Shown here in pieces: positions 1 through 21,404 of a DNA stretch of 64,000 bases. The position numbers were made by a program, and so were the translations under genes. Source of the DNA: an uncultured Rikenellaceae bacterium (GTDB lineage Bacteria > Bacteroidota > Bacteroidia > Bacteroidales > Rikenellaceae). Location of the stretch: positions 124,001-188,000 of the forward strand of contig CAMLTW010000001.1 in assembly GCA_946486375.1 (NCBI GenBank). Reading direction: 5' to 3'. How positions within the stretch are numbered: position 1 is the first letter of the stretch; every line of letters begins with the position of its first letter. The notes beneath the pieces were generated by a model that worked only from the letters and a program-made list of their open reading frames with translations, ran no database searches and was not told where the DNA came from.

Positions 1-2936
1 CGGCCCAGCAGCGGCGAATCACCGGAACGGTGAGCGATGCGAGGGGTCCGTTGGCCGGGGTGGCGGTTACGGTCAAGGGCACCACTCAGGGAACGACCAC
101 GGACGGGGCCGGAAAGTATGCCATTTCCGCTTCGGCGGAAAGCATCCTGGAATTTTCCTTTATCGGCTACGTCGGGCAGGAAGTCACGGTCGGGTCCCGG
201 CAGGTGGTGGACGTTACGCTGGAGGAAGATGCCACGGACATCGACGAAGTGGTGGTGATCGGTTACGGTACGGTCAAAAAACGGGACTTGACCGGTTCCG
301 TGTCTTCCATCAAGGAGGATGTGATTCTGGCCATTCCGACCGGCAACGTCATGCAGGCATTGCAGGGACGAGTGACCGGTTTGGACATGCATGAAAACGA
401 CAAGGGCGAACTGAAGCTCGTCATGCGCGGACACCGTTCCATCAACGGTACGAATGATCCGCTGATCATTATCGACGGCGTGCAGGGCGGAAGCTACTCC
501 GATATCAACCCGGCCGACGTCGCTTCGATCGACATTCTGAAAGATGCATCGTCTACCGCGATCTACGGTTCGCAGGGGGCCAACGGGGTGATCATCATCA
601 CTACGAAGGCTCCGGATAAGGGGAAAATGACGGTGAATTACAACGCTTATGCCGGATGGACCATGTGGGCGGATCAGAACGATCGTCGTGTCGGCGAGTC
701 CTGGATCGCTCCGCGGCGGATAGCCGCCCAGAATGCCGGACAGTGGCAATCTGCGGCGGACGATGCGGCTCTGTTCGGGAGCAACGAGGCTTATCAGGCG
801 TTTATGAACAACGACTGGACCGACTATCGCGAACTGATCAGCCGGAAACCGTTCATGCAGAATCATACGTTGTCCATTTCGGGAGGGACGGAAACGGTCA
901 ACGCGCGTTTTACCGCCGGCTGGGAAGAATCGCAAACCAAAAGAAAAGGCGGTTCGTCCGACAAGTTCAACCTGCGCGCCGAAATCAACTCGAAAGTCAA
1001 TTCCTGGTTGAGCGCAGGGGTCAACATGCGGTTGGGACACAATTACAGCAAAGAATCTCCGTATCAGTCGGACGGCGGTTGGCAGTTGGGACATCCCTAC
1101 GATGAGAACGGGGATTTGATTATCTATCCCGTCGGCGAGTCCGGTTATGTCAATCCCTTGCTGGATGCTTATTATTCCAACATGAAGGTCAAGAAGGAGT
1201 ATTCGACCCGGATTTCCGCTACCGGCTATGTCGATGTCAAACCGGTGAAAGGACTCAACATTCGTTCCCAGTTCAATACGAATCTTTCCATGACCACGAC
1301 CGGTTCCTACACGGACAAGAACTCTTCGGGGCAGATCGCCGACAATCATGAAAGCAGCTCCAGTATGGAAATCGTTCCGAAACGGTATATCGAATGGAAC
1401 AACATCGTCACTTATGAGAAGAAGTTGGGCGACCATAGTTTCGGGATAACGGCCCTGACCGCTTACACCAAATCGATAAATGAAAAACTCACCGGTTCGG
1501 GTAAAGACCAGCTGGTCAATTCCAATCTGTGGCATGCTTTGGGCGGAACCAAGACGCAGGTGGTCGGTTCGGAATATGTGCAATCCCAGATGTTTTCCTA
1601 TGCGGCCCGTGTCAACTATTCGTATAAGGATCGTTATTTGTTCACCGCTTCGTGGCGCCGGGACGGTGCTTCCAGACTTTCGAAAGGACACAAGTGGGCC
1701 TCTTTCCCTTCGGCCGCATTGGCATGGCGTGTCAGCGAAGAAAACTTCATGTCGGGACAGACGTGGCTGGATAATCTGAAACTTCGTATCTCTTATGGGG
1801 TGACCGGTAATTCGGGTATCAAGGAATACGGAACCCAGAGCGGTGTGGTAAGTTCCAGCACGGGGCTCGCTTTGCAGGATAAACCGCTGTTGCATTACGA
1901 TTTCGCCAATTCCATCGGTAATACCGAAACGAAATGGGAGACTTCGGAAAACTTCGATGTCGGGGTCGACTTCTCAATCTTCAACGGTCGACTGGACGCA
2001 ACGATCGACTTCTACAACACCAATACGAAAGACCTGCTCCTGGCGCGGAAACTCCCGACCTCCGCAGGGGCCGACGGTAACTTTACGATCATGCAGAATA
2101 TCGGCCGTACCAATAACAAAGGAGTCGAAGTCACGCTGAGCGGTTACCCGATTCGCAAGAAGAATTTCTCCTGGAGAGCGACCTTTACATTCTCCCGCAA
2201 CGTGGAAAAAATCAAGGAACTGGTCGATGGAAACGATATCGTGCTCGACGGCACCGACAAGGAAACCAAGACGTTGATGATCGGTCATCCGATTACTTCC
2301 TACAATACGTATCAGTATCAGGGAATTTGGAGAACGGATGAAGCTGCCGAAGCCGCCAAGTATTTCACGACTTCTGCTAAAACCACCAGTTTCAAACCGG
2401 GGGACTACAAGATACTCGACCGGAACGGCGACTTTATCATCGACATGGACCATGACTATGACTACATCGGCTCTTCCACGCCCGACTGGTTCGCCGGGTT
2501 CGACCATACGTTCCAGTACAAGAACTTCGATTTGAACATTTACTTCTATTTCCGGTGGGGACAATACGGCAGTAATCCGGGAGCCAACCTCGATCCGGCG
2601 ACCGGTGGCGGTTATACCCTTTACGACAAATGGTTCTGGGCGGCCGGCACCAATGAAAACGCCAAACTTCCTCCGCTGGATGCCGGCAAGAAGCATTTCG
2701 ATTATCAGGGCTATCAATCCGTCTGGTATTGCGACAGGTCTTATTTCAAGATCAAGAACGTTTCGCTGGGGTACACCCTGCCGAAATCCGTACTGTCGAG
2801 AGCCGGCATCAAAAACCTCAGACTGTATGTTTCGGCGGCGAATCCGCTGTACTTCTCCAAGAGCAGCTGGCTGGAAGGTATCGATCCCGAAGGTTCGCTG
2901 AGGAACTATATTTTCGGCGTTGAGTTTTCATTTTAA
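1..2936 (+). CDS. SusC/RagA-family TonB-dependent outer-membrane transporter (5' truncated by window)
   Basis: This protein imports oligosaccharides across the outer membrane together with its SusD partner, using TonB energy. The frame is already open at base 3 and reads QQRRITGTVSD before the first possible start (GTG at 30), so the true start and signal peptide lie outside the window. About 977 residues are visible. In order they are a carboxypeptidase-D-like beta-sandwich (about 1-80), a plug starting at VVVIGYGTVKKRDLTGSV with the hallmark DPLIIIDG and DASSTAIYGSQGANGVI motifs (about 80-210), and a long beta-barrel ending in FGVEFSF, a typical barrel-closing C-terminal aromatic. susD follows after 20 bp. 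The family call is very secure. The ligand is unknown; nearby enzymes suggest a fucose-containing glycan. Confidence 0.97.
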   Translation, partial: AQQRRITGTVSDARGPLAGVAVTVKGTTQGTTTDGAGKYAISASAESILEFSFIGYVGQEVTVGSRQVVDVTLEEDATDIDEVVVIGYGTVKKRDLTGSVSSIKEDVILAIPTGNVMQALQGRVTGLDMHENDKGELKLVMRGHRSINGTNDPLIIIDGVQGGSYSDINPADVASIDILKDASSTAIYGSQGANGVIIITTKAPDKGKMTVNYNAYAGWTMWADQNDRRVGESWIAPRRIAAQNAGQWQSAADDAALFGSNEAYQAFMNNDWTDYRELISRKPFMQNHTLSISGGTETVNARFTAGWEESQTKRKGGSSDKFNLRAEINSKVNSWLSAGVNMRLGHNYSKESPYQSDGGWQLGHPYDENGDLIIYPVGESGYVNPLLDAYYSNMKVKKEYSTRISATGYVDVKPVKGLNIRSQFNTNLSMTTTGSYTDKNSSGQIADNHESSSSMEIVPKRYIEWNNIVTYEKKLGDHSFGITALTAYTKSINEKLTGSGKDQLVNSNLWHALGGTKTQVVGSEYVQSQMFSYAARVNYSYKDRYLFTASWRRDGASRLSKGHKWASFPSAALAWRVSEENFMSGQTWLDNLKLRISYGVTGNSGIKEYGTQSGVVSSSTGLALQDKPLLHYDFANSIGNTETKWETSENFDVGVDFSIFNGRLDATIDFYNTNTKDLLLARKLPTSAGADGNFTIMQNIGRTNNKGVEVTLSGYPIRKKNFSWRATFTFSRNVEKIKELVDGNDIVLDGTDKETKTLMIGHPITSYNTYQYQGIWRTDEAAEAAKYFTTSAKTTSFKPGDYKILDRNGDFIIDMDHDYDYIGSSTPDWFAGFDHTFQYKNFDLNIYFYFRWGQYGSNPGANLDPATGGGYTLYDKWFWAAGTNENAKLPPLDAGKKHFDYQGYQSVWYCDRSYFKIKNVSLGYTLPKSVLSRAGIKNLRLYVSAANPLYFSKSSWLEGIDPEGSLRNYIFGVEFSF

Positions 2937-2956
2937 CCAAGGAAAAAATTAAAGCG

Positions 2957-4813
2957 ATGAAAAGGATTAAAAATATATTCATCTCGGGTGCGGCGCTCCT
3001 TGCCGCGGCTTTCGGGATACAGTCCTGCGACCTGGAAGAGTACAATCCCGCCGGAGCGACCGTGGATGTACTGCTTTCCACCCCGGACGGCGTGGCTGCT
3101 TTCGTCAATCGTCTGTATTACAATTATCCCTGGAAGTATTTCGGGCGCGAAGACCCCGTTTTGTACCTGGAAAGCAGTACGGACATCTGGGTGCCGCGCG
3201 GCGGCAGTGCCAATACCTATGGCCAGAACATGACCATGTATAAGAACATGACTTCGGGCGTCGGACAATTCGCAACGGTCTGGAACCGTCAATACGATAA
3301 CATCAACCGTACGAATGCCATCATCAACCGGATCGGCGACGTCGAATACATTTCCCAGGATGAGAAGAATTTTCATGAAGGGCAGGCCCGCTGGTTCCGC
3401 GCCTACGCCTACTGGTGGCTCTGCGAATTTTTCGGCGATGTCGAACTGAGACTCGAAGAAACGAAAACCGCTGTTTTCGAGGCTTACCGCACGAAAGCCG
3501 AAGTGATTTACGATCAGGTGATCCTGCCCGATCTCCGGCTGGCCTGCAAGCAACTTCCCGTTACTCCGCTCGACGGTTATTATGGTCGTCACACCAGAAA
3601 AGCGGCGTACGGTATGTTGGCTCGCTGCGCCCTGACCCGCGCCAGTTATTGCGCCACCGAAGCCGAAGCCAAACCGTTCTATCAGGAGGCTTACGATGCG
3701 GCTACGTATGTCATCAACAATAAGGAAGAGTTGAACATCGAGCTGTACGATACGTATGACGAAGTATGGCAGGCCAAGAACAACAAGACGAACACGGAGT
3801 TTCTGGCCGTCGTGACCCATTCGTCCAATTCGACCTACAATGCTCAAAAGAAGAATCCGAATCGGCTGTTCATGTATTTTTCTCCCAAACTGCAATCGCA
3901 TATGGGCATCTCTGCCAGCTCGGACAACTGGGAATATTATAAGGAACAGGGAAACAGCAGCGCGGCTCAAATGCCCACCCGTTTCTTCCTGGGGTTGTTC
4001 GAAGAGGGGGATTTGCGTTATGACATTCTCTTTCAGGAAAAATTCTATGCGCCTACCGATCAGGATTACAGCTATGACTGGGCTTCTTCGTCCACGGCTG
4101 AAACCGACAGAAGTTTCTTCGGCAAGGATCTGGATGCGATTAAGGCCGCTAACGGTGGAAAGACCACTCTGGAACCGGGCGATCTGGTTTACTGGTTCCC
4201 GAGAACTGCCGTCAGCGAAGAGGTGGAAAAATCTTCGCTGACCGCTATCGTGGATATCGATAAGCGGTACAACGCCGACGGCAGCGTTCGCACGGCAGAG
4301 GAAAACGGCAACGCCTGGCTGACCCAGTGCATGCCTCGTTTCAAAAAATTCCGGATCTCGGACACTCCGACTCCGGGAGACGAGGATGTGATTCTTTGCA
4401 CCAATGCCAACAGCAACGTCGGGTATGCGGACGTATGCATCATGCGGTTCGCCGAAATGCAGTTGATCGCTGCCGAAGCCGCCATGTATCTGGGTACCGA
4501 CAACAAGGGTGCGGACTTTATCAATCAGTTGCGTAAACGCATCATCAAGCCGGGGTATGAAGCCGCCATGACGGTTACGGCTGCCGACATGGATATCGAC
4601 TTCATCCTGGATGAACGGGCCCGGGAGCTTTGCGGCGAATGGTTGCGCTGGTTCGACCTGCATCGTACCCATAAACTGATCGAGCGCGTTAGATTGCATA
4701 ATCCGGAAGCCGGGGAAAATATACAGGATCATCACATCTTGCGTCCGATTCCCGAAGCGTTCCTCAGTACGCTGATGAACCGGGATCAATTCGGTCAGAA
4801 CAAAGGGTATTAG
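2957..4813 (+). CDS. SusD/RagB-family glycan-binding outer-membrane lipoprotein
   Basis: This surface lipoprotein caps the SusC barrel and captures glycan. The 618 residues start MKRIKNIFISGAALLAAAFG and reach a lipobox at IQSC, so Cys24 should be lipidated. The family's conserved C-terminal signature is present as DERARELCGEWLRWFDL, followed by the usual closing segment with RPIPEAFL and N-rich QFGQNKGY. Length is normal to slightly long for the family. It sits 20 bp behind susC and is surely co-transcribed with it. A strong 12-bp inverted repeat lies 58 bp after the stop, before the beta-helix gene. Which sugar it binds cannot be read from sequence, because binding residues are not conserved in this family. 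Confidence 0.97.
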   Translation: MKRIKNIFISGAALLAAAFGIQSCDLEEYNPAGATVDVLLSTPDGVAAFVNRLYYNYPWKYFGREDPVLYLESSTDIWVPRGGSANTYGQNMTMYKNMTSGVGQFATVWNRQYDNINRTNAIINRIGDVEYISQDEKNFHEGQARWFRAYAYWWLCEFFGDVELRLEETKTAVFEAYRTKAEVIYDQVILPDLRLACKQLPVTPLDGYYGRHTRKAAYGMLARCALTRASYCATEAEAKPFYQEAYDAATYVINNKEELNIELYDTYDEVWQAKNNKTNTEFLAVVTHSSNSTYNAQKKNPNRLFMYFSPKLQSHMGISASSDNWEYYKEQGNSSAAQMPTRFFLGLFEEGDLRYDILFQEKFYAPTDQDYSYDWASSSTAETDRSFFGKDLDAIKAANGGKTTLEPGDLVYWFPRTAVSEEVEKSSLTAIVDIDKRYNADGSVRTAEENGNAWLTQCMPRFKKFRISDTPTPGDEDVILCTNANSNVGYADVCIMRFAEMQLIAAEAAMYLGTDNKGADFINQLRKRIIKPGYEAAMTVTAADMDIDFILDERARELCGEWLRWFDLHRTHKLIERVRLHNPEAGENIQDHHILRPIPEAFLSTLMNRDQFGQNKGY

Positions 4814-4870
4814 GATTCGGAACCGAGCGTATTCGGAAGCGTCCGAATATTCCCGGAAGTGAAATGGAAC

Positions 4871-4907
4871 GGATGCGGAGCGGGAAAGTTTTTTACGCTC
4901 CGCATCC
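4871..4907 (+). repeat. Perfect 12-bp stem-loop between susD and the beta-helix gene
   Basis: GGATGCGGAGCG (4871-4882) and CGCTCCGCATCC (4896-4907) pair perfectly around a 13-base loop. A second, smaller repeat, ATTCGGA-N4-TCCGAAT, lies at 4831-4848. No T-run follows the large stem, so a simple intrinsic terminator is doubtful. An mRNA stability or processing element after susCD is the alternative. Confidence 0.6.
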
Positions 4908-4997
4908 TTATTCGTGGAAAATTTCGGGTAGCTTTCCGTGGCCGGAACCCGGAGGGAGCTCCGAAATTCCGAAATCGGAATATTCGGGGAAACGTTT

Positions 4998-5030: not shown

Positions 5031-5102
5031 TATTCCATACCGGAAATGTCGCCGTGTTTCGATCGGCGACGGAAGGTGACTGTGAACGCAAACATTCGAT
5101 CC

Positions 5103-7076
5103 ATGAGAAAAGTGAAACACATTGCTGCATTGGCCTGCGCGCTTCTTTTAACGGGGGCCGCGGCTCAGGCGCAGAAGACGATTTACGTATCGCCCGACGC
5201 GCCCAAAAACGGAAAGGGGACGCTTGAAGCTCCGTACGGTTCCATCGAAGAGGCTCAGGCGGCTGTCAGGAAGCTGAATAAAAAGATGACGGGGGATATC
5301 ACGGTGTATCTTCGGGGCGGCACCTACACGCTTGCTTCTCCCCTTCTTTTCAAAGAGGAAGATTCGGGGATGAACGGGTTCCGTGTCGTTTACAAGGCTT
5401 ATGAAAACGAAAAACCGATCGTCAGCGGAGGGCATGCGATTACCGGTTGGGAACCTACCGCCCACAAGCACATTTATAGCGCTCCGTTCGAAAGCGGTGA
5501 AAAACTCCGCGCCCTTTTCGTCAACGGCAAACGGGCGCGCATGGCCGGGATGGGAGCTCCTATCCGGGGACAGGGCAGCTGGGGACGGATCGAAGTGACC
5601 GGAGACGAACCCTGGGCGTACGGCAGCGGCAACGTTGTGGAAGGCATTAAGTTCTTGCTGAAGGATCTGCCGCTCCTTTCCAACCCGGAAGACGTGGAAC
5701 TGATCCAGAAAAACGTATGGAACGAAAAGATACTGGGCGCTTCGGCGGTCGAAAGAATCGATCGGGATACGCTGGTCATTCGGCTCCAGCAGCCTTACGG
5801 AGCCATTCTGACGTCGCTGGCATGGGCCGGAAGAACCAACTACAACAAGGATTTCATCATCCGGAATGCGTTCGAATTGCTCGACAGTCCGGGCGAGTTC
5901 TATTTCGACCGGAAGAAAGGGCGCCTTTATTATTATGCGGGCGACGAAGACATGTCCCGTGCCGAGGTGATTGCGCCCGTCAGCAAGGGATTGATCCGGA
6001 TTTATGGTTCAGGGGTGGATTCCCGTGCGGGGAACCTGGCTTTCGAAGGGATTACTTTTTCGCACGATGCGTGGGGGTTGATGGAAATCGAGGATTCCTA
6101 CGGTTTCGGCGGGATTCAAAGTCTCGGACTGGCGATCAAATACATTCCGGGCGGCAACTGGCATCCCACCAAGTACAACAGCACCGATGTGCCTCCGGGA
6201 AGCATCGACGTGAAGAATGCGCAGAACGTTTCCTTTGTCCGCAACCGGTTCGAGCAGCTGAATTCAGCGACTGCCGTCAGCTACGTGAATGACGTAGTCG
6301 GCTCCGAGGTTACCGGCAATTTCTTCAACGATCTGCTGGGAAATGCGGTCTGTGTAGGGCATCCGCAGCATTACGAAATCGGCGACGGCGATATTTACGG
6401 CCCCGGTGTCGAGGGGGTATGCAAGGACATTCGGATTACCAACAATTACATCCGGAACGTTTCGCTCGATTTCCGCATGGTGGAAGCGATCATGGCGTTC
6501 TTCGTGGAGCATGTCAATTTCGATTACAACGACATTTCGGGTACCCCTTACGGTGCCATTGCCTGCGGGTGGTGGTGGGCCAATGCGGGCATTCCGCCGT
6601 CCACGGTCGCCAAAGACAATACCATCAGCTACAACCGCATCGGCAATACGCATATCGTTCTGCATGACGGCGGTATGATTTACACGCTGGGAAAACAGCC
6701 CAACTCGACGATCAAGGGCAACTATCTTTTCAACGGGCCGAGGTGCATCTATCCGGACGACGGTTCGGCTTACTTCACCGTTACCGATAACGTGGTCAAC
6801 AGCCTGCACCGGTTATGGCTGCACATCGCTTCCGACCGGTGTCACGACATCGTGATCGATCACAATTTCGTGAAGGACAACGGGACGATCAACAACGGCG
6901 TGAATACGCCCCTGACCAATACGATCAATTTCCGCAACCGTCCGTTCGACGACGAAGCCAAAGGGATCATGGAGAAGGCAGGCATTCAGGAACCGTACAA
7001 AGACATCATCCCGGCACGGGAACCCGAACGGATCGACATTTATCCCTGGGTGGAAAAGGAACCCTGGATCAACTGA
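5103..7076 (+). CDS. Secreted right-handed parallel beta-helix protein, GH141-like
   Basis: The ATG at 5103 was chosen because it opens a clear signal peptide (MRKVKHIAALACALLLTGAA, cleavage near AQAQ) although the frame is open further upstream. The 657-residue protein begins TIYVSPDAPKNGKGTLEAPY and then shows VYLRGGTYTL, EDSGMNGF and PIVSGGHAITGW. This N-terminal pattern matches, from memory, GH141 enzymes such as the pectin-degrading alpha-L-fucosidase BT1002. The rest is rich in short N/I/V-periodic strands such as VTDNVVNSLHRLWLHI, typical of a beta-helix. It is a paralogue of the protein at 18964-20844. It lies downstream of susCD, so it probably acts in the periplasm or at the surface on the imported glycan. 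The fold is secure; the GH141 assignment and reaction are inference, and a polysaccharide lyase or epimerase is possible. Confidence 0.85.
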   Translation: MRKVKHIAALACALLLTGAAAQAQKTIYVSPDAPKNGKGTLEAPYGSIEEAQAAVRKLNKKMTGDITVYLRGGTYTLASPLLFKEEDSGMNGFRVVYKAYENEKPIVSGGHAITGWEPTAHKHIYSAPFESGEKLRALFVNGKRARMAGMGAPIRGQGSWGRIEVTGDEPWAYGSGNVVEGIKFLLKDLPLLSNPEDVELIQKNVWNEKILGASAVERIDRDTLVIRLQQPYGAILTSLAWAGRTNYNKDFIIRNAFELLDSPGEFYFDRKKGRLYYYAGDEDMSRAEVIAPVSKGLIRIYGSGVDSRAGNLAFEGITFSHDAWGLMEIEDSYGFGGIQSLGLAIKYIPGGNWHPTKYNSTDVPPGSIDVKNAQNVSFVRNRFEQLNSATAVSYVNDVVGSEVTGNFFNDLLGNAVCVGHPQHYEIGDGDIYGPGVEGVCKDIRITNNYIRNVSLDFRMVEAIMAFFVEHVNFDYNDISGTPYGAIACGWWWANAGIPPSTVAKDNTISYNRIGNTHIVLHDGGMIYTLGKQPNSTIKGNYLFNGPRCIYPDDGSAYFTVTDNVVNSLHRLWLHIASDRCHDIVIDHNFVKDNGTINNGVNTPLTNTINFRNRPFDDEAKGIMEKAGIQEPYKDIIPAREPERIDIYPWVEKEPWIN

Positions 7077-7249: not shown

Positions 7250-8671
7250 TCATTCCAGATCAATCCGGACGGCCTGCGCCAGATCGGACGGAATCCGCGT
7301 TTTGGGCGGTATGGTGAACGTCAATCCGTCCGCCGTTTGCGTGAAGGTGCACGTATGCGGTTCCTTCAATCCGAGTACGGTCACGGATTTGATTTTCGAT
7401 CCGGTGTTTCCCCGCTTGAGCTGTTTCAGTTCCACCGTTGCACCCTGTCCCGGCCAATCGAGGAAAATCGCGTAGATCGTGTTGCCTTTCCGGGTGTAAT
7501 GTACTTTCTGATTTTCCGGAGTGTATTCGTAGGAAACGGAGAACGGGCGCGTTCCGTAGATGGATTCGCCGTAAGACCACAACCAGACTCCGACGTTGGC
7601 GACGATGTCTTTCTGATCCTGGGGGAACGTTCCGTCTGCCCGGGGCGACAGGTTCAGCAGGAACTGGCCGTTGTTGCTGACCGCTTCGATCAGCTTGTGG
7701 ACGATTTCCTTCGGGGTACGGAGAGCCATTCCTTCCACGTATCCCCACGAATAGTGGTATCCCGTTCCGATGGCGTAATCGCACAGCCAGGGGATGGGGT
7801 CGATCCGGTCGGGATTGCTCATTTCGTGATCCAGCATGCAGATGTCCCGCGGAAAATCCTTGTTTTTATAGGTGACGATCACATCCTGACCGCGCTCTTC
7901 GGCCGTGTTGAAATAGTGCGCCAGAAACTTCAGTTTGTACGGTTCCGGGATCTGATCCATCCACGCGTCGAAGTAGATGATGTCCGGACAGTACTTGTCG
8001 ACTACTTCGTTGCTTTTGTCCAGCCACATCCCCAGCCACTCGTCGTGAGGCATCTGGCATCCGTACATCTTTGCATATTTCGGATCGGCTGCTGCCCATT
8101 CGGGTTTCACCTTGACGTACGTGTAATTGTTTTCATGGTGAAGCGAGACGAAGAATTTCATGCCCTGTTTCCGGATGGCTTGAGCCAGTTCGCCGATCAC
8201 ATCCCGCCGGGGCCCCATGTTTTTGGCATTGAACGGGGTATGCCGGCTGTCCCACATGGAAAAGCCGTCATGGTGTTCCCCGACGGCTCCGGCGAAACGG
8301 GCGCCGCTTTTTTTGAACAGCATCGCCCACTCGTCCGGGTCGAAACGTTCGGCCCGGAACTGGGGGATGAAATCGTGATAACCGAACTCCGAAAGCGGGC
8401 CGTACAGAGCGACATGACGCCGATAGGTACCCATCTTGTCGTACCGATCGTCCTGATGCATGAAATAGTAGTATTGCTCGTTGTCGTAAGCGGGAACCGA
8501 ATAGACCCCCCAGTGACAGTAAATCCCGAATTTGGCGTCGCGCATCCATTCCGGGACGGGAACATGCTGCCGGAGCGATTCCCAGTCGGCTCCGTATTTC
8601 GTTTGTCCCGATGCATGTGCAGCCATGATCGCACAACAGGAAAAGAGCGCTGTTTTCAGATATTTAAACAT
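7250..8671 (-). CDS. Alpha-L-fucosidase, glycoside hydrolase family 29, secreted
   Basis: This enzyme removes terminal alpha-L-fucose by a retaining mechanism. The start at 8671 (MFKYLKTALFSCCAIM) gives a signal peptide ending near HASGQ. The frame runs open upstream to 8989, but that part is non-coding in character. The 473 residues show GH29 motifs: FGIYCHWGVYSVP (48-60), EHHDGFSMWDS (132-142) and CPDIIYFDAW, with Asp235 as candidate nucleophile. The C-terminal part has NNGQFLLNLSPRADGTFP and YGESIYGTRPF, the usual end of the barrel, before a beta-sandwich tail. It is the second gene after the propeller enzyme, with 152 bp between them holding a large hairpin. The family is certain. Linkage preference is not visible. 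Confidence 0.96.
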   Translation of the reverse strand: MFKYLKTALFSCCAIMAAHASGQTKYGADWESLRQHVPVPEWMRDAKFGIYCHWGVYSVPAYDNEQYYYFMHQDDRYDKMGTYRRHVALYGPLSEFGYHDFIPQFRAERFDPDEWAMLFKKSGARFAGAVGEHHDGFSMWDSRHTPFNAKNMGPRRDVIGELAQAIRKQGMKFFVSLHHENNYTYVKVKPEWAAADPKYAKMYGCQMPHDEWLGMWLDKSNEVVDKYCPDIIYFDAWMDQIPEPYKLKFLAHYFNTAEERGQDVIVTYKNKDFPRDICMLDHEMSNPDRIDPIPWLCDYAIGTGYHYSWGYVEGMALRTPKEIVHKLIEAVSNNGQFLLNLSPRADGTFPQDQKDIVANVGVWLWSYGESIYGTRPFSVSYEYTPENQKVHYTRKGNTIYAIFLDWPGQGATVELKQLKRGNTGSKIKSVTVLGLKEPHTCTFTQTADGLTFTIPPKTRIPSDLAQAVRIDLE

Positions 8672-12537: not shown

Positions 12538-15500
12538 CTATTCGAATTCCATGCTTTCGAGTTCCAGGCCCGGCGTGTCGAGTACGGTCAACCGGATTTT
12601 ATAGAGTCCCGCGTTGATCATCGAGCCGGTGGAGGTACTGGTGATGCGCCATTTTTCCGGAGCAGGAGGAAAGTCGATTCGTTCGCTCCGCATGAGGACG
12701 CCGTTATTGGCGTTGACGAGTTCCAGACGCATCGGAATCGGTTTGTCCGAACGGTTCATGTAACGGAAGCGGATCAGGTAGGTGGCTGCCAGCCCCGGAT
12801 TCACTTCCCATTCGAGGGAGCTTCCCGGTGCGGTCAGCTTCACGAAATCGCCTTTGCGGAAGTTGCCCGTTTCGTGCGCTCCCGTGACGGCGGCTTCCTG
12901 CGCTCCCAGTTTTACCACCGGCCGCGCCGAAGGTTCTTCTCCCATGTTTGCGATGTAGGTGACCGCCACGTTGTCCACGGTTTTCGCGCCTTGTTCGGTC
13001 AGGGCGAAGGATTCTCCCTGAGCGTATCGCCGCGTAAAGACATCGAAAACTTCGTTCCGGCCGTTGACGACCGAATCCGGGCTTTTTTCCCAGCCTGCCA
13101 GTTCCTTCGGAAGGGAAACGCCCTGCCGTACGAAAAGATGCACGTCTGCACTGTCCCGGAGCCGGAAGGAAACCGGTTTCCGGTTTTCCCGCTTACCGCT
13201 GAACCATTCCGCTGCATAAAAGGAAGAAGGCAGCGAAGCGAATCCGACCGCTTCGTTTGTGTATTGCGGATCGCCCGTATCGAGCCAAAGATGCTTCTCC
13301 CAGCCTTTCCCCTTCAGGTTTTCCGTAAGGGTGGGGGAGGCCGGAGCCGGAGCGATGCCGCCGTTTCGGGAAGCGATGGCGATGGCCGACAGAACGGCCT
13401 GTCCGGAGGCGGTTTTCGGGAAGGAAATCTTCAGCACCCCGTCTTCGGCCCGTGCCGTCACCGTTTTTTTCACTGCGCCGTCGTGACCCGCTTCCCGCCA
13501 GATGTCGAGATTTTCCAGCACGGTGCTGTCGTTCACCGCCACGTCGAACAGTCGCCAGCCGGCGGCATCCATCCCGCCGCCCGTACCGTACCACGGCTCT
13601 GTGAAATAGAGTTCCACCCGGTACTCTCCGTCGGGCACCGGAAACTCCCAAGACAATTCCTGTGTTCCGTATCGGAAAGACCGGAACAATTCCCAGTCCG
13701 CCGTGTTCCGGATCGGATCGTGCGTTCGGCGTTGGCTGCCGAAATAGGGCGGAACGCCCGGAAAGTCGTCCGTCCACGACCGGGAGCCCCAGGTTCCCGG
13801 TTCCGTTCGCTGCCGGTCGGCCAGCCAGCGGGAACCGTTTCCATCGGTGTAATCGTTTCCTCCGCAGTTCACCCGGTACAGGTAGCGATACCCTTTTTCC
13901 GGCTGTGTCAGTCGACTTCCCCCTTCTTTCAGCCGGGCCAGTCCGGGCGCCTGCGGCAGGTGATGAAGCAGGATCAGGTCTTCGGCTGCCGGCTTCCCGT
14001 CCACGTAGCCCACGGCCCGAAGAACATTATAGCGGATGTCGGCATCGTTCCAGATAAAATGCGTTCCGATGCCTCCTTCTCGCCGGCGGCGTCCCAGCGA
14101 GGCCCCGTCCGCGTCGTTGAAAAGTTCCACTTCGTCGCAGTTGGAGAAAACCCGGATGCCGTCTTTTCGTCCCGGTTCCGTCCAGCGGTCGGGCCAGGTG
14201 TGGGAAACGATATAGACCATCGGTTCCGTTTCTTTCGGGGCGTAATTGGCCCGGAACATATAGAAAGCGTCCAGCGGTTCCCCCCACGGCGTGACGATTC
14301 CCTTGTAGTTGACCGGGCCTACCCGGTCGATGCTCCGCAAGCCCTCTCCGTTCTGGATGCGGCCCGGATTTTCATGGGAATTGAACAGCCAGTGGAACTG
14401 TCCCGCGATCTTGTCCCGGACCGATTCGGCCTGCCGCACTTTCATTTCCATCAGAAGCGTCATGCGGTCTTCGCTCTGGGGGCCGTTCTGCACGTAGTCC
14501 CCTTCCGTGTGCCAGTCGATGCTGCGCCAGGCGCCGTATTCCCCGTTGAGCAGCTGGGCAGTCATTTCCTCCGCATATTTGTCCGGGTTGCCGCCGTAGG
14601 TGCCCGACCAGTTCTGCACCACGTTCCAGTCGGTTCCGGTGCCGCCGTTGCAGGTGGTCACGAGTCGCTGGGAGGAAGTGGTCGGATCGAGTTCCCGGAT
14701 GATGTCGACGCATTCCCGTGCGTATTCTTCCGGCAGGGTGCTTTCGTTTTGCAGTCCCCACATGATGAGGGAGGGACTGTTCCTGCGCTCTTTCACGTAG
14801 TCCCGCAGCAACCGTTTGAAGTTTTCCCGGAATTGCGGGGTGTCGTACCAGATATGGGCCGACATCTGCGACCACCAGAGCATTCCCAGCTCGTCCCAAT
14901 ATTTGTTGTACAGCAGGTTGTGCGGTTGGTGAGCATCCCGAAAAGCGTTGAAGCCCGCCGCCCGCATCTGTTCCACCCGCGCTTCGATTTGTTCCGGCGT
15001 GAAGGCGTGGCTGTTTCCCATCAGGTGCTCGTATTCGCAGGTGCCGTTGATGAGCACGGGCTGTCCGTTGATCTTGAACTGATTGGAGCCGTCGTTCCGG
15101 TTCAGGTGCCAGCTTACCCACCGGATGCCGTAGGGCGTTTCCGTCCGGTCGAGCACTTTTCCGCCGTCCCGGATTTCGGTCACCACGGTATAAAGGTACG
15201 GTTCGTCCGGAGACCAGAGTTTTACATTCCGCAGGGCCGGAAGCTCCTGTCGGAGCGTCTCGGTTTCTCCCGGACGGAGCAGGACGGGATCGCTGCACAA
15301 GCCTGCTTGCCGTCCTGCACTGTCGAGAACGGTGGTCAGAACTTCGACCTCCTTCGCCCGTGCGCCGTAATTCCGGACTTCGGTCTCGAAATGCAACCCT
15401 GCGGAATCCGCCGAAATATCATTGCCGTTCCAAACGTGTACTCCGAAGGGCTCGATCCGGATCGGATCGGTTGCCGTCAGCGTGACGGGCCGAAAAATAC

Positions 15501-16047
15501 CCATCGGCTGGCTCCCTTCCGAAAAACCCCATTCCCCGGAACAGCCGCCGCATACCCACGGCAGATCGCTGATAAGCGCCGGATGGTCGGCCCGTACCGC
15601 CAGCGTGTTCGGTTCCCCGTAACGGACGGCATCCGTGATGTCGAGGGTGAAAGTCGTCCGTCCCCCGGCGTGTTTTCCGACCTCCCGGCCGTTCACCCAA
15701 ACCGTGGCGTAGGAACCGACGCCTTCGAAAAAGAGGAAAATTCGTTTGTCCCGTAGTGCCGGATCGACCGAGAATGTTTTCCGATACCAGGCGTAACCGT
15801 GCCGGTTTCCATGGCGAAGCTGTCGGAATCCTTCGTAGTTATCCCAGTTGTGGGGCACGTCGACCGCCAGCCATGCGGAATCGTCGTAACCGGATCGCTC
15901 GAATCCCGCGTAAGCCTGCGGATCGGTGTCATGGACAGCGGTGCGCCATCCTTCGTTCAAGGAAACGGATGTTCGGACGTTTCCGTTTTGTGCGGAAACC
16001 GATAAAGCCGCCAGCAACAGGGCGAAAAGAAAGAGATTTTTTTTCAT
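12538..16047 (-). CDS. Secreted glycoside hydrolase family 2 enzyme (beta-galactosidase/beta-glucuronidase type) with malectin-like domain
   Basis: The 1169 residues start with MKKNLFLFALLLAALSVSAQ, a signal peptide. The GH2 core follows: sugar-binding jelly roll (about 25-190, with DVPHNWDNYEG and GVGSYATVWVNG), an immunoglobulin-like domain (about 195-310) and a TIM barrel (about 315-620). In the barrel WGLQNE gives Glu435 as acid/base and NGEYGAW gives Glu503 as likely nucleophile. A further immunoglobulin-like domain (about 650-710) leads to a malectin-like domain (about 720-870, with GEYRVELYFTEPWYG and LENLDIW). The C-terminal 280 residues look like one or two carbohydrate-binding beta-sandwiches, ending RLTVLDTPGLELESMEF. 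It is the last gene of a three-gene minus operon. The exo-glycosidase class is secure; the sugar (galactose, galacturonate, glucuronate or other) is not. Confidence 0.93.
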   Translation of the reverse strand: MKKNLFLFALLLAALSVSAQNGNVRTSVSLNEGWRTAVHDTDPQAYAGFERSGYDDSAWLAVDVPHNWDNYEGFRQLRHGNRHGYAWYRKTFSVDPALRDKRIFLFFEGVGSYATVWVNGREVGKHAGGRTTFTLDITDAVRYGEPNTLAVRADHPALISDLPWVCGGCSGEWGFSEGSQPMGIFRPVTLTATDPIRIEPFGVHVWNGNDISADSAGLHFETEVRNYGARAKEVEVLTTVLDSAGRQAGLCSDPVLLRPGETETLRQELPALRNVKLWSPDEPYLYTVVTEIRDGGKVLDRTETPYGIRWVSWHLNRNDGSNQFKINGQPVLINGTCEYEHLMGNSHAFTPEQIEARVEQMRAAGFNAFRDAHQPHNLLYNKYWDELGMLWWSQMSAHIWYDTPQFRENFKRLLRDYVKERRNSPSLIMWGLQNESTLPEEYARECVDIIRELDPTTSSQRLVTTCNGGTGTDWNVVQNWSGTYGGNPDKYAEEMTAQLLNGEYGAWRSIDWHTEGDYVQNGPQSEDRMTLLMEMKVRQAESVRDKIAGQFHWLFNSHENPGRIQNGEGLRSIDRVGPVNYKGIVTPWGEPLDAFYMFRANYAPKETEPMVYIVSHTWPDRWTEPGRKDGIRVFSNCDEVELFNDADGASLGRRRREGGIGTHFIWNDADIRYNVLRAVGYVDGKPAAEDLILLHHLPQAPGLARLKEGGSRLTQPEKGYRYLYRVNCGGNDYTDGNGSRWLADRQRTEPGTWGSRSWTDDFPGVPPYFGSQRRTHDPIRNTADWELFRSFRYGTQELSWEFPVPDGEYRVELYFTEPWYGTGGGMDAAGWRLFDVAVNDSTVLENLDIWREAGHDGAVKKTVTARAEDGVLKISFPKTASGQAVLSAIAIASRNGGIAPAPASPTLTENLKGKGWEKHLWLDTGDPQYTNEAVGFASLPSSFYAAEWFSGKRENRKPVSFRLRDSADVHLFVRQGVSLPKELAGWEKSPDSVVNGRNEVFDVFTRRYAQGESFALTEQGAKTVDNVAVTYIANMGEEPSARPVVKLGAQEAAVTGAHETGNFRKGDFVKLTAPGSSLEWEVNPGLAATYLIRFRYMNRSDKPIPMRLELVNANNGVLMRSERIDFPPAPEKWRITSTSTGSMINAGLYKIRLTVLDTPGLELESMEFE

Positions 16048-16121: not shown

Positions 16122-16137
16122 CCGCAGTATGTCGTTA

Positions 16138-18888
16138 TCAATAGAACAGCCAGTCCACGCTTTCCTTTTGGGTTCCGCTGGCCAGTCCCGCATCGCGCGG
16201 CGCGATCTTGTCCGTGCCGTCCGCAAAACCGAGTACCAGTGCCGTTCCCTTGCCGAGGTTCAGCGTGTTTTTACCCGGGCCGAACGAATAGGCGTGGATG
16301 TTGACCGCCGGCATTCCTTTTATTTCCACGGCATTGGCGATCTTGATTTCCGCCTGTCCGTATTCGTTCGCCGTGGCGTCGGTTTCGAGCACCGGCGCCC
16401 GCAGGAAGTCGTTCTTTTCGGAGGCGAAGTAACCCACCAGCACCTGTACCGGCTTGTCGCAGGTAAAGACGATTTGGGTTCCGTCGCGCCGCTGGTCGCT
16501 TGTCCGGGTCTTCACGGCTTTCAGGTTCGTCAGCTCCGGTGCGAAAGCGCCCATGACGTTCTGCCGGTCGGCAAAGACGGTCTGTCCCTCCTTCACCGGT
16601 ACCAGCGTGAGGCCGGACGTTTCGAATTTCACATCCGCCGGTCGCAACGGCTGCGGTTCTTTCGTTTCCTGTCCTCCCGCCGTTTTCAGGAAGTCGATGT
16701 TTTTCCGGAAGGTGGTCAGCTCGGCTTCATAAAGCGGCAGCAGCTCGGCCCACGTACTGTACCGGCCTCCGTCGCTGCCGATCGGAATCCGCCGTTGCCG
16801 GGTCAGCATGCTGTTGGCATAGTGATAGGTGTCTTTGGTCAGGTCGACCAGTTCGCGGTAGTAATCCAGGCTCTTATCGAGGTGGGCCGCTGCTTTTTCA
16901 AGGCTTCCGACGTTCCGGGAATAGTTGTATTCCAGCACCAGCATGGCCGCCTTCACCTTTTCGGCGAAATACCGGGCATAGGCATAATAGGCATGGGCGT
17001 CATTCTTCAGCCGCCCGAACTCTTCCTTGTTCCGGGTGACGTGCGGAGCCGCTTTTTCCATCGCTTCCACCGCTTTACGTCCGTGCTCTACCGCTTCGGC
17101 GATCAGTTGCGGCGGCGTTTCCCCCACGTGCGGCTGTTTGTTCCATTCCTTTTCCATGAATACCTGCAGCCGTTCTCCGACCGGCCCGCAGGAAGAGTGG
17201 AACCCTTCGTAGACCGTCCATTTGGCCGGATTCACGAGCTGGCTCATGAACATGCCCAGCAGCATGGTCTGCCGGTTCCCTTCGGTGATGCCGAACTTGC
17301 GCAGGAGTTTGGGCGAAATTTCCCCCATCTGATCGTAGCCGGCCATGATTTCCCGTCCGTATTCCGGTGAGCAGCCGTACTCGTCTCCCAGCCGGGCCGA
17401 CCAATAACGGCTTTCCTCTTCCTGATCCCGGTTGCATTTCCAGGCATAACGAGCCCAGGCTTCGTACCAGATCCAGTCCCGATCCATTTCCAGCAGCCGG
17501 GTGCTGTCCGCCAGCTTGTCCGCAGAATAGGGCCAGTCCCAGTAGGAGGCCTGCGGATACAGGTGCAGCCCGTTCGCCCCGTGCACGGTATGCATGGCCC
17601 GCATGGCCTTTTGCACGAAAGCCGGGGAACCCCATCTGAAGGGTTCCAGATTGGCCAGAATGTGTACGTTTTCGATGTGGATCGACCCCAGCGAACTCAG
17701 GTCGGTGTGGATTTTCGACCACGGGCCGCGCGGTTCGTAGGTCGTGAGCGATTCCCCGTTGTATTTGTGCATCGTGTAGAGGTTCTTGTAGATCGGCAGC
17801 GCCGCGTCCATCACCATCTGGCAGTTGGTGTCGTGCGCACGTACCAGAATCGGAGGTTCGTCCGTCCGCCCCAGCGCTTTCAACCCGTCTTTCACGCCGG
17901 GAATGATGGTCTCGGTAAAGAATTCCACGTCGTCTTCATAGGTGTCCATCGCTTCTCCCAGACAAACCAGCAGCCCCACGTTCGGATAATTTTCCACGAA
18001 GGCGGCGATGGATTTGCGCGTATAGTCGGAAATCAGAGGCGTGATCTGCCGGCTCCGTTCCTGCGTCCTCAGGCCGTAGTGTTCTGCGAAAGGCTTGGAA
18101 AGGATGATGTTGTAGAACATCTGGATCACGAAGATTCCCCGCTTGTCGGCTTCCTGCGTGAGGAAGGAAAACATTTCCTGGTTTTTTTGAAACGTCTCGT
18201 CGTCCACTTCCACGGCGAACGGATAGTCTTCCAGCTTCACCAGCGAGGCGAACGGATGCCCGTTCCAGAGGTAAACGGAGTTCATCCGGTTTTCCACGAG
18301 CATATCGAGGTATTTGACCCACAGTTCCTTGTCGTAGAACCACGGGAAGTTTTCAGGCGTATAGGGATACTCGTAAACGCCCCGGCCCGGCAGCCACGTG
18401 GTTTTCTGAAGGCCGATGCAGGAGCCGCGCAGCACCATTTCGGGCCGGTCGGTCATGTCGACCGAGTCGGGCAGGGCGCCGTTCGTTTTCAGCCGGTCTA
18501 TCAGTTCCATACAGCCGTACAGGGCGCCCGAAGCGTCGCCTCCGTTCACCACCAATACGTTTCCTGCCGACCGGAGGGTAAACCCTTCCTTGCCGGGATT
18601 CAGGAAGAACTCCATGCCCGTTTCTTTGGCGGCGGCACCGACCGCAGCGTCTTCACCGGCGCCGATGGCAATGACCTTTCCGGCGGTTCCCGGTGTGTAA
18701 TCGTGTGCCGCAGTCACCCGGTAGCCGTTCTGTTCGAGGGCCGTTTGCAGTTTTTCGGCCCCGAAAGCGATCCGGTTCGAAGCGTCCGGGGCGGTGACGA
18801 TCGTTACGTCACCTTTGCCGCCGGAACAGGCGGTTCCTCCTGCCAGCAGGAAGAAGAGCGCGGCGATTATCCAATGCAGTTTTTTCAT
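16138..18888 (-). CDS. Lipoprotein with GH67N/GH20b-like domain and TIM-barrel, putative glycoside hydrolase
   Basis: The 916-residue protein begins MKKLHWIIAALFFLLAGGTA with lipobox GTAC, so it should be a lipoprotein. Residues about 27-135 have the GH20b / alpha-glucuronidase N-terminal pattern (VTIVTAPDASNRIAFGAEKL, KEGFTLRSAGNVLVVNGGD, GALYGCMELIDRL). A TIM-barrel region follows (about 145-560), with VLRGSCIGLQKTTW, ENRMNSVYLWNGHPFASL and LLVCLGEAMDTY. A helical region (about 560-760) comes next, then a C-terminal beta-rich module (about 770-890) with KPVQVLVGYF and MPAVNIHAYSFGPG. This organisation resembles alpha-glucuronidase-like enzymes of families GH67 and GH115, but I cannot place it in a numbered family. 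It is the middle gene of the operon, 75 bp after the beta-helix gene. The fold is likely, the substrate unknown. Confidence 0.72.
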   Translation of the reverse strand: MKKLHWIIAALFFLLAGGTACSGGKGDVTIVTAPDASNRIAFGAEKLQTALEQNGYRVTAAHDYTPGTAGKVIAIGAGEDAAVGAAAKETGMEFFLNPGKEGFTLRSAGNVLVVNGGDASGALYGCMELIDRLKTNGALPDSVDMTDRPEMVLRGSCIGLQKTTWLPGRGVYEYPYTPENFPWFYDKELWVKYLDMLVENRMNSVYLWNGHPFASLVKLEDYPFAVEVDDETFQKNQEMFSFLTQEADKRGIFVIQMFYNIILSKPFAEHYGLRTQERSRQITPLISDYTRKSIAAFVENYPNVGLLVCLGEAMDTYEDDVEFFTETIIPGVKDGLKALGRTDEPPILVRAHDTNCQMVMDAALPIYKNLYTMHKYNGESLTTYEPRGPWSKIHTDLSSLGSIHIENVHILANLEPFRWGSPAFVQKAMRAMHTVHGANGLHLYPQASYWDWPYSADKLADSTRLLEMDRDWIWYEAWARYAWKCNRDQEEESRYWSARLGDEYGCSPEYGREIMAGYDQMGEISPKLLRKFGITEGNRQTMLLGMFMSQLVNPAKWTVYEGFHSSCGPVGERLQVFMEKEWNKQPHVGETPPQLIAEAVEHGRKAVEAMEKAAPHVTRNKEEFGRLKNDAHAYYAYARYFAEKVKAAMLVLEYNYSRNVGSLEKAAAHLDKSLDYYRELVDLTKDTYHYANSMLTRQRRIPIGSDGGRYSTWAELLPLYEAELTTFRKNIDFLKTAGGQETKEPQPLRPADVKFETSGLTLVPVKEGQTVFADRQNVMGAFAPELTNLKAVKTRTSDQRRDGTQIVFTCDKPVQVLVGYFASEKNDFLRAPVLETDATANEYGQAEIKIANAVEIKGMPAVNIHAYSFGPGKNTLNLGKGTALVLGFADGTDKIAPRDAGLASGTQKESVDWLFY

Positions 18889-18963
18889 GTCGTTGTGTTT
18901 TTGTCGTTCGGGTATGTTGAAATTATAACGTATTTACAGGTAGTTACGGTACTTTTTGTTGCT

Positions 18964-20844
18964 TTACTCCGTCAACAGATAGCGATACTCCTTTTCCAGC
19001 CCCGCAGCGTTCCTGATTTCGTCGGAAACCGTCGGGCCGTTGTTCTTCCAGGTGTTGCCGGGGCCGTTGGCATTGGCCAGGAACTTTTCCGCCGGACACC
19101 AGTTGTTCTCGATCCGCATGAAGGATGAACCTTCGTCCGTATAGTAATAGAACCAATGCTTCGGGTCGTGGACGTACGGCGGCGAGTAAATCGAGTCGGC
19201 CCGGTTTTCGACGATAGCCGTACCCGGTTGCGCCGAAAGGGTGTAGACCGCCGCCACATCGTACATGTGTTTGGCATAATGATGAATGTAGTTGGCCCGG
19301 ACGGTGTTGTTCCGCATGGCTCCCACCAGCTTCGTCCAGCCCCAGCCGAGACTGATTCCCGTGTAGGGCAGCTCCCGCAGTTCGTTGTGTTCGATCGTCA
19401 GTTCCCGGACGCAGCCGGCCAGAATCCCCACGCTGCCCCAGTCCTCGTTGCCGCATTCGGTGATGAGGTTGTTGGAGATCAGTCCGTTCCGGCTCACTTC
19501 CCGTAGATCGGACGGGTCGTATTTCAGGTGCGACTCGAAAGCCTGATCCGAAACCTTTCCGTACTGGATGGCGTTTCCGGAGATATCCCGGAAAAGGCAT
19601 CCCCGGATGATGTCGTTTTCGGTTCCGTGCAAAAAGTCGAGTCCCGCACCGCCCAGATGCTCGAAGCGGCACTTCTCGAAAGAAACGTTTTGCGTCCAGG
19701 CGACCGTAACCGCCGCCGCCGGGCGTCCGTGCCAGCCCTGATTTTCCAGTCCCCGTTTTTCGGGGGTGCCTGGACGTTTCAGTTTATAGGCGTCGATCAG
19801 ATACATGCCGGCCTGCAAGGGAACATGTCCCTGCTGCGACGGCCGCATCCAGGTCGTGTATTCGAACGACAGCCCTTCCACCGTCACGTGCTTTACGGGC
19901 CGGTCGATCGTTCCTTCGACGTTCATCAGGGTTTCCAACGCCGGAACCGTCGCTTCCGCCCGGTTCATGTCTTCTCCGGGACGCGGATAATAATAGACGT
20001 CCTGCGTCCGGTAGTCGTAAAACCATTCTCCCGGCTCGTCCAGCAGACACAAGGCATTGGACAGATAGAAGGGGGAGTTGCCTGTGGAAGTTCCGATGAC
20101 GGGCGTGGGCCACGGATGCTCGAACTGGATGCGGCTTTCCGGCTCGTGGAACGTAACCCGGGCGCTGTCTCCCCGGACTTCGATGTTTTTGATCCGCAGA
20201 TGGGCGATAGCCCACATCTGGTGAATGGTGAATTCCATAGGCGAAGGATTGCCCGTTGCGGGCCATGCCGCAGGAGTCGGAATCCAGATTTCCCGCTTTT
20301 GCTTGTCCCAGGAAAGGATGCGGTTCATCCGGTCGGGGGCGTTGTCCCGCGCCCGTACCGCTTTTTTTCCATTCACCCACAACTGACGAAAGTCGAACGG
20401 CCGTCCGGAAAGCAGGGGAGCTTTGGCTACCCATACTTTCCCTTGCGCCGCTTTCGGCAGTCCGGCGATTTTCCCTCCGGCTTTCCGCCATCCCGTGACC
20501 GGGACGCCTCCGCTCAACCGGGGCCGTTCGCCGTCGGCATTCCGGATGACGGTGGGAGACTCCGGCGTACCCGAATCTTCCGCCCGGACGAAAACCGGTT
20601 CCCAAAGTCGATATTCGCCTCCCCGGACAAAAATATAAACTCCGTCGGCCACCGACGGATCCTGAAGCCGTCGCAGTTCGCGTCCCTGACGCAGGGCGGC
20701 ATGGATGGTTTGTTTCGGGGCTTCCCGTGTTCCGGGCGCCGTGTCGGAACCTTCCGGCGAAACCCAGATTTCAACGGCATTCGCTCCGGAGAAGCTCCAG
20801 GCTCCGGCAAGAGTCAGCAGGACGGTGAAAAATTTACGTTTCAT
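18964..20844 (-). CDS. Secreted right-handed parallel beta-helix protein, GH141-like (paralogue of 5103-7076)
   Basis: The chosen start at 20844 (MKRKFFTVLLTLAGAWSF) gives a standard signal peptide with cleavage near GANA. An ATG four codons upstream (20856) is equally possible. The frame stays open to 21096, but that extension lacks coding character. The 626 residues open with EIWVSPEGSDTAPGTREAPK, then VYIFVRGGEYRLWEPVFVRA, EDSGTPESPTV and PRLSGGVPVTGW. This is the same signature as the plus-strand paralogue and, from memory, as GH141 enzymes. Beta-helix repeats follow, for example FEKCRFEHLGGAGLDFL and TEN-type turns (GTENDIIRGCLFRDISGN). It is the first gene of the three-gene minus operon. 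A pectic alpha-L-fucosidase or xylosidase-like role is plausible but unproved. Confidence 0.83.
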   Translation of the reverse strand: MKRKFFTVLLTLAGAWSFSGANAVEIWVSPEGSDTAPGTREAPKQTIHAALRQGRELRRLQDPSVADGVYIFVRGGEYRLWEPVFVRAEDSGTPESPTVIRNADGERPRLSGGVPVTGWRKAGGKIAGLPKAAQGKVWVAKAPLLSGRPFDFRQLWVNGKKAVRARDNAPDRMNRILSWDKQKREIWIPTPAAWPATGNPSPMEFTIHQMWAIAHLRIKNIEVRGDSARVTFHEPESRIQFEHPWPTPVIGTSTGNSPFYLSNALCLLDEPGEWFYDYRTQDVYYYPRPGEDMNRAEATVPALETLMNVEGTIDRPVKHVTVEGLSFEYTTWMRPSQQGHVPLQAGMYLIDAYKLKRPGTPEKRGLENQGWHGRPAAAVTVAWTQNVSFEKCRFEHLGGAGLDFLHGTENDIIRGCLFRDISGNAIQYGKVSDQAFESHLKYDPSDLREVSRNGLISNNLITECGNEDWGSVGILAGCVRELTIEHNELRELPYTGISLGWGWTKLVGAMRNNTVRANYIHHYAKHMYDVAAVYTLSAQPGTAIVENRADSIYSPPYVHDPKHWFYYYTDEGSSFMRIENNWCPAEKFLANANGPGNTWKNNGPTVSDEIRNAAGLEKEYRYLLTE

Positions 20845-21404
20845 GGCGTTATTCATCGTTTGTCGGTTGACGGCTGCGCCTTTTACCGGAGAACGGATTC
20901 TGTTCCGCAACCGTTTTTTCGGCCGACCGGTTTCCTCTCCTGAACCGGAGGGGAGAACCGCCTCATTCTCGTTTCCCCTGTCGGCGGAAGACGTACGCTG
21001 CATCCGGATGTGGTTGCAAAAACAAGCGGTGACATGCGCCGTTACACAACGGTGGGCCCGTCCGCCGACATCGAGTCCGAATGCGGATGCCGACATCCTG
21101 GTTTATAACGGTTATCTTCCTGCATGTGTTCGCAAACACAACCGTGCTAAAGATATTGAAATTTTCTGATACCAGAAAAAATTCTTTGCGTTTTATTGCC
21201 GTTTTGTGTTCGGGCGTTTTGTTTTCCGAACATGAAGAAAAAGGAAACGAATTTTCCGGGCGTTTTCCGGAAAGAGAAAAACGCTTGGGGAAGGGAAAAT
21301 AAAAAAGCCCGGAAGGGCTTTCATTTCGGGCTTGTTTGCCGATTCTGTTTTTCCGGATCCGGGGCCGATAAACCGGTCGCAAACCGTCCCGGAAAAAAGC
21401 GCCA
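20845..21404. promoter_or_regulatory. Long upstream region of the minus PUL operon, with two inverted repeats
   Basis: This 560-bp gap lies between the beta-helix gene and the Lrp-type regulator, both read on the minus strand. It holds two compact palindromes: TGTGTT-N4-AACACA at 21125-21140 and TTTTCTG-ATAC-CAGAAAA at 21162-21179. Between them, on the minus strand, TATCTTTA at about 21156-21149 resembles a -7 box. No convincing gene was seen. A regulated promoter with operator sites is a reasonable reading; the regulator is not identified. Confidence 0.4.
21297..21321 (-). terminator. Rho-independent terminator of the Lrp-type gene
   Basis: On the minus strand AAAGCCC-TTCC-GGGCTTT is followed by TTTATTTT. 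It lies about 85 bp past the regulator's stop codon. Confidence 0.8.

Follow-up and report, generated by a model that had tools for sequence, protein, structure and literature searches.

The DNA analysed here, referred to as the window, is a stretch of 64,000 nucleotides (G000:C1:124001-188000) from the 3.13 Mb genome of an uncultured Rikenellaceae bacterium. At its left end lies a cluster of nine features (positions 3-20844), each confirmed as a long open frame backed by database matches, so that the genes claimed for positions 1-21096 in the initial annotation do exist. They encode a SusC/SusD pair, two proteins of glycoside hydrolase (GH) family 141 (GH141A and GH141B), enzymes of GH29, GH138 and GH2, an outer-membrane protein and a predicted beta-propeller glycosidase that is called PROP below. 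The cluster had been read as a polysaccharide utilisation locus (PUL) that might target a less studied fucosylated glycan or else be a side-chain module. Because GH138, a GH2 of BT0996 type and a GH141 of BT1002 type stand together in it, the predicted target is chain A of the pectin rhamnogalacturonan-II (RG-II), which agrees with the side-chain alternative and replaces the proposal of a less studied glycan. Judged from its sequence, this is an RG-II locus of the Rikenellaceae and not a novel PUL for a fucosylated glycan. It is highly probable that the locus serves the utilisation of RG-II side chain A and carries, in addition, a couplet dedicated to RG-II that consists of GH141A and PROP. 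Leaving the couplet aside, the cluster is a known kind of system in a rearranged form; the couplet is its new part.

The enzyme encoded at 16138..18888 (minus strand) is a GH138 alpha-D-galacturonidase with a lipoprotein-like signal. It matched NF049878 with 1480.9 bits (curated cut-off 1300) and aligned over its full length with BPa0997 (6hzf; phmmer E 0, residues 13-916), whose E361 corresponds to Glu379 in the YNGES motif of the window protein, this Glu being kept. The enzyme had been labelled GH67-like, a name that is corrected here, as Pfam GH67N reached only E 0.016, under its cut-off. Reportedly, the target of GH138 is the galacturonic acid (GalA) of chain A of RG-II, a finding attributed to Labourel et al. 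in 2019. Beside it, at 12538..16047 (minus strand), is the gene of a GH2 beta-D-glucuronidase of BT0996 type possessing a malectin domain. The match of this protein to NF049877 (1563.7 bits, below the cut-off of 1800) spans model positions 363-1398 of 1400, and the bifunctional GH137-GH2 architecture typical of BT0996 is not present: the window protein is the GH2 half alone, without the GH137 half, and is 55% identical to BT0996 of a Bacteroides thetaiotaomicron-like (B. theta-like) PUL. The earlier description as GH2-malectin was right about the domains and incomplete in that it missed a BT0996-type, chain-A enzyme. In PMC9843283, BT0996 is described as taking off the glucuronic acid (GlcA) of chain A once BT1010 has removed L-galactose. 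GH141B (18964..20844, minus strand) is an orthologue of BT1002, matching GH141_M with 224 bits and 5mqp with E 7.2e-229 and clustering with BT1002 in a quick tree (SH-aLRT 97). According to PMC10154630, BT1002 frees the disaccharide 2-O-methyl-xylose-alpha1,3-fucose (2-O-Me-Xyl-alpha1,3-Fuc) from chain A.

The protein encoded at 7250..8671 (minus strand) belongs, as initially proposed, to the alpha-L-fucosidase family GH29 (Pfam Alpha_L_fucos, E 1.2e-86, 291.8 bits, cut-off 25.2). Its closest solved relative is the exo-alpha-L-galactosidase 7ljj (E 4.4e-83). It is not necessarily the only L-galactosidase of the organism, since a GH95 protein with 54% identity to a BT1010-like protein is encoded at G000:C1:55819-58212; a role for the window GH29 as the sole L-galactosidase is for this reason not forced.

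GH141A (5103..7076, plus strand) is a divergent beta-helix enzyme of GH141 with a signal peptide, matching Pfam GH141_M with 32.9 bits (cut-off 27) and 5mqp with E 2.5e-46. It is 26-30% identical to BT1002, and the catalytic residues Asp523 and Asp564 of BT1002 are conserved, both being aligned in four of four GH141A sequences. The claim that the cluster holds a GH141-like pair is thereby upheld for both beta-helix proteins, one being the BT1002 orthologue and the other keeping both catalytic Asp residues. BT_1002 was searched in 58 genomes bearing GH138 (45 + 13), and the quick tree was built from the sequences in hand. It separates clade A, to which the couplet enzyme belongs (17 rows, SH-aLRT 100), from clade B of BT1002 type (15 rows, SH-aLRT 97), and places second paralogues in a less compact group C. 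A third GH141 paralogue of this C type was observed in the window's own genome (G000:C6:85547-87340, L173); it is 46% identical to BT_1002, and similar ones occur in many Bacteroides. Weak GH141 matches (28%) in Phocaeicola sartorii (G564) were considered as possible GH141A proteins and rejected, as their positions fall outside clade A.

Clades A and B are distributed in opposite ways. Clade A occurs in 17 of the 58 genomes, just three of which also have B (G000, G501 and G565), the 14 with A alone being ten genomes of g185, a genus of the window's family, together with G504, G560, G562 and G563. Among the 41 genomes without clade A, 38 have B and three do not (G628, G708 and G713). The opposition gives a Fisher p of 4e-8, or 0.0014 if g185 is counted once; part of the GH141 absences may be assembly gaps, as in G504, which is 82% complete. 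Gene order is consistent with this pattern. The RG-II PUL of g185, in the loci in hand, has homologues of BT0993, BT0996, BT0997, BT1001, BT1003 and BT1020 at about 59-75% identity (the contig of G398 stops ahead of the last two, BT1003 and BT1020), and BT1002 is gone from its slot between BT1003 and BT1001. In the Tannerella locus L014, GH141A of the couplet adjoins a BT1001 orthologue (64%). The opposite distribution, the synteny and the retained pair of catalytic Asp residues suggest, as the simplest reading, that GH141A can substitute for BT1002.

PROP (8824..10506, minus strand) is predicted to consist of an N-terminal beta-sandwich like the C-terminal domain of GH138, followed by a five-bladed beta-propeller of the GH43/GH130/GH137 type, as indicated by a match to the tail of NF049878, profile hits and a structure model. 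On its own the window protein matched nothing in Pfam at E 0.1 or in the PDB at E 1. When PROP and its relatives were combined into a profile, this matched the GH130 phosphorylase 9fj8 (E 7.6e-8), a GH32 inulinase (E 0.005) and the C-terminal domain of BPa0997 (GH138; E 0.024). Pfam GH43 was matched by six of the 12 members of alignment A3 (best E 4.8e-7), these members probably being the short PROP relatives of genus g186. The AlphaFold model of full-length PROP (pLDDT 57) was not used; the AlphaFold2 model of the propeller alone is of moderate confidence (pLDDT 66.3, pTM 0.73) and was treated cautiously. No single structure matched it best: GH159 7zei (Z 23.4, root-mean-square deviation 3.3, 277 residues) and GH137 of BT0996 (Z 23.4, root-mean-square deviation 3.7, 301 residues) share first place with GH62 and GH130 structures. 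The propeller enzyme of the initial annotation is thus supported by the modelled fold as a five-bladed-propeller glycosidase, with no family assignable by sequence. Six acidic positions of PROP are invariant: E234, E251, D364, E379, E452 and D469. Membership of GH137 or GH143 was not adopted, profile comparison having covered only 36-38 columns at about 10% probability; for GH143 (N-terminal part of BT1020) the weak hhalign match had 10% and 38 columns, and 5mqr stood at Foldseek rank 22 (E 9.7e-7). A search for a viral relative of PROP found none. In P. sartorii one open frame (L019:9962-12721) fuses a PROP-like N-terminal part to a GH28 galacturonidase, and GH28 is adjacent to PROP in L014 and L022. 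In another genome of the same order (L025:3-1784) a PROP-like propeller follows a Glyco_hydro_cc (GH128-like) catalytic domain; this domain was matched by one of 12 alignment members and was assigned to L025 from its N-terminal sequence.

Among 268 genomes of the window's family, GH138 was found in 13 and GH141A in 13, whereas PROP was found in 18, 13 times at full length (at least 61% identity) and five times as a distant form in genus g186. Full-length PROP, GH141A and GH138 occur in the identical 13 genomes. Fisher p for this coincidence is 2e-22 by genome and 1.4e-4 by genus, or 2e-18 and 7e-4 with the five g186 genomes taken as PROP-positive, none of these values being corrected for phylogeny. 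PROP and GH141A are neighbours in 11 of the 13; a GH29 gene intervenes in the window and the two lie on separate contigs in G504. In g185, PROP and GH138 are more than 100 kb apart or on different contigs, so that neighbourhood is not the cause of their co-occurrence there. Named genomes scanned with PROP yielded nine loci, two of which (L015 and L021) are those of the family genomes G501 and G504, and GH141A adjoins PROP in five (L014-L018). All eight PROP-bearing genomes reached from the named loci, among which that of L017 is not counted, have GH138, or six of six outside the family when G501 and G504 are taken off. One draw of 149 Bacteroides genomes contained 42 with GH138 and three with PROP, all three GH138-positive (p 0.021), so that 39 of the 42 GH138-bearing Bacteroides are without PROP. 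In an order-wide draw of 295 genomes PROP was present in G000 only, apart from two partial matches of 44%. In Bacteroides, then, RG-II use may or may not come with the couplet, whereas in the sampled Rikenellaceae it always does.

The remaining genes of the cluster are a SusC-like TonB-dependent transporter (3..2936, plus strand; TIGR04056, 771 bits), whose 5' end is cut by the window edge and continues in the upstream stretch L010, a SusD-like surface lipoprotein (2957..4813, plus strand; Pfam SusD_RagB and SusD-like_3) and, in mid-cluster, a PagL-like outer-membrane protein (11027..12382, plus strand; Pfam PagL, 42.8 bits). The statement that a single susCD pair is present holds inside the window, but a further pair lies 0-10 kb upstream of it. 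Likewise, lyases of pectin type are indeed absent from the window, but this is an artefact of the window edge: two PelZ-like pectate lyases, 52 and 56% identical to the polysaccharide lyase (PL) of a B. theta-like RG-II PUL, are encoded in the same 0-10 kb. On contig C2, a gene of its own (L013:9892-10995) encodes the GH137 half of BT0996. A GH127 protein near it bears a weak resemblance to the aceric acid hydrolase model (480 bits, cut-off 950), and farther along C2 (L012:1-17000) a susCD pair is accompanied by one GH31 enzyme, one GH2 enzyme and a protein with a BNR/FGE-sulfatase domain. With its stand-alone GH137, GH127 and susCD PUL, the end of C2 is a second candidate RG-II region of G000. 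Within the window, 52907-54310 encodes a probable glucuronate isomerase, compatible with the use of uronic acids; from its N-terminal sequence we take the product to be UxaC-like.

In the proposed scheme, in which the substrates in the organism, the order of the steps and the cellular locations are predictions, SusCD would import RG-II oligosaccharides that the upstream pectate lyases help to free. Chain A would then be trimmed by the BT0996-type GH2 (GlcA), GH141B (the 2-O-Me-Xyl-Fuc disaccharide) and GH138 (GalA), and capping L-galactose would probably be removed by GH29, or by a GH95 encoded elsewhere in the genome. The couplet would be a further pair of RG-II enzymes, our best guess being that it targets the fucose branch in chain A, with GH141A as the alternative to BT1002 and PROP, a putative propeller hydrolase outside the known families by sequence, cutting 2-O-Me-Xyl-alpha1,3-Fuc. 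B. thetaiotaomicron is described in PMC7939467 as cutting 21 of 22 RG-II linkages, the exception being 2-O-Me-Xyl-alpha1,3-Fuc, which accumulates in the medium. The couplet is a candidate for this linkage because it tracks the RG-II genes, is absent from the B. theta-like genome G624, has its PROP missing from most GH138-bearing Bacteroides and contains a GH141A that mostly replaces BT1002. That GH141A and PROP together cleave the linkage that B. thetaiotaomicron cannot cut is nevertheless put forward tentatively, as an idea with perhaps a modest chance of being correct.

Several observations weigh against the reading of the couplet as an RG-II pair beside a chain-A locus. Ten of the 13 family genomes belong to one genus, and the co-occurrence counts are uncorrected for phylogeny. 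Two genomes with PROP, G564 and G567, have no GH141A, the two genes are not neighbours in G565 (L020), and five g186 genomes (L038-L042) have a distant PROP relative (43-46% identity, about 375 amino acids) without GH138. The RG-II families covered in G000 were GH138, GH141, GH137, GH2, GH95 and PL homologues, whereas a complete RG-II system would also include GH139, GH140 and GH142/143. Finally, a putative catabolic cassette of D-threonate type accompanies the couplet in the ten g185 genomes and fits Dha or some other acid sugar better than 2-O-Me-Xyl-Fuc. In all ten g185 couplet loci (L055-L064; for example L057:10197-16032), PROP is followed by genes for a DapA-family aldolase, an SSS symporter, an iron-dependent alcohol dehydrogenase (Fe-ADH) resembling lactaldehyde reductase, PdxA and a DUF1537 kinase, and GH95 is present in seven and GH28 in six of the ten. 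Among the best NCBIfam matches of this cassette are D-threonate kinase and D-threonate-4-phosphate dehydrogenase, neither of which reaches its cut-off; the sole models to do so are the generic ones for PdxA and SSS. These five genes are a putative pathway for Dha or another acid sugar.

The couplet might accordingly act on chain D, the side chain that contains Dha, or on a different acid sugar linked to the backbone, PROP debranching the galacturonan backbone beside an exo-acting GH28 and the freed sugar being used via the aldolase, the alcohol dehydrogenase, D-threonate kinase and PdxA. Besides the cassette behind PROP in every g185 couplet locus, the PROP-GH28 fusion of P. sartorii and the GH28 genes next to PROP in L014, L022 and six g185 loci are consistent with this, and a retro-aldol reaction of Dha would yield pyruvate and a D-threo four-carbon aldehyde acid, from which D-threonate, its 4-phosphate and dihydroxyacetone phosphate could follow. 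However, a homologue of the GH143/GH142 protein, presumably BT1020, is already encoded in the five g185 genomes with the flank in hand, so that release of Dha there does not depend on PROP; a simple replacement of the Dha hydrolase GH143 by PROP was judged unlikely on the same grounds. Moreover, none of the loci in hand outside g185 showed the cassette near PROP, and GH141A stands in for a chain-A enzyme in both distribution and synteny. We regard a role in Dha use as a serious rival, with the same modest chance of being correct as cleavage of 2-O-Me-Xyl-alpha1,3-Fuc. A role of the couplet at some other RG-II linkage, for instance in a form of chain A or B specific to certain plants or at an arabinofuranose (Araf) decoration, and thus at neither 2-O-Me-Xyl-Fuc nor Dha, is a real possibility, though short of an even chance. 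It would fit the strict association of full-length PROP with GH138, the propeller fold that its model has in common with arabinofuranosidases of GH43, GH62 and GH137, and the variation of RG-II structure between plants noted in PMC7939467, but the opposed distributions of GH141A and BT1002 favour the fucose branch. Quite another fucosylated glycan, be it algal fucan, mucin or xyloglucan, is a very improbable target of the locus. The families GH29 and GH141 also include fucan- and xyloglucan-active members (PMC12786026 and PMC11189522), yet here GH138 and the BT0996-type GH2 stand beside a BT1002 orthologue and pectate lyases, and the genes assigned in the cluster include no sulfatase.

Should cleavage of 2-O-Me-Xyl-alpha1,3-Fuc by the couplet prove true, PROP would found a new family of propeller glycosidases and GH141A a new subfamily of GH141; some gut Bacteroidales would degrade RG-II fully, while in most Bacteroides the disaccharide would be left for others. 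No pectin is more complex than RG-II, and a small conserved pair makes the hunt for the last activity testable with two recombinant proteins. A narrow search of open-licence literature from 2018 on found no paper on an RG-II 2-O-methyl-xylosidase. The genes for RG-II chain A are now extended to the Rikenellaceae, for which no report on RG-II was found in the literature searched.

Comparison with solved or characterised proteins shows where the enzymes of the window stand. The similarity of the window GH29 to its closest solved relative, the exo-alpha-L-galactosidase BpGH29 (7ljj), is moderate, and L-galactose specificity is not inferable from it. Algal galactan is said to be the published substrate of BpGH29. 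The modelled propeller of PROP aligns with GH137 of BT0996, a five-bladed-propeller beta-L-arabinofuranosidase, but the two have no significant sequence or profile similarity and G000 has a GH137 of its own. Whereas GH141B is the orthologue of BT1002, GH141A shares with BT1002 the fold family and both catalytic Asp residues but differs in its low identity and in forming its own clade. The RG-II PUL of B. thetaiotaomicron, which we take to be the BT0983-BT1030 region, and the present genome have in common orthologues of BT0996 (GH2 half), BT0997 (GH138) and BT1002 (GH141) as well as a PL of the same kind. In contrast to that PUL, the genes of G000 are scattered over several places, with the GH137 half separate on another contig, and the couplet is added. 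Neither GH141A nor PROP is present in G624, a B. theta-like genome with a GH141B that shares 99% identity with BT_1002.

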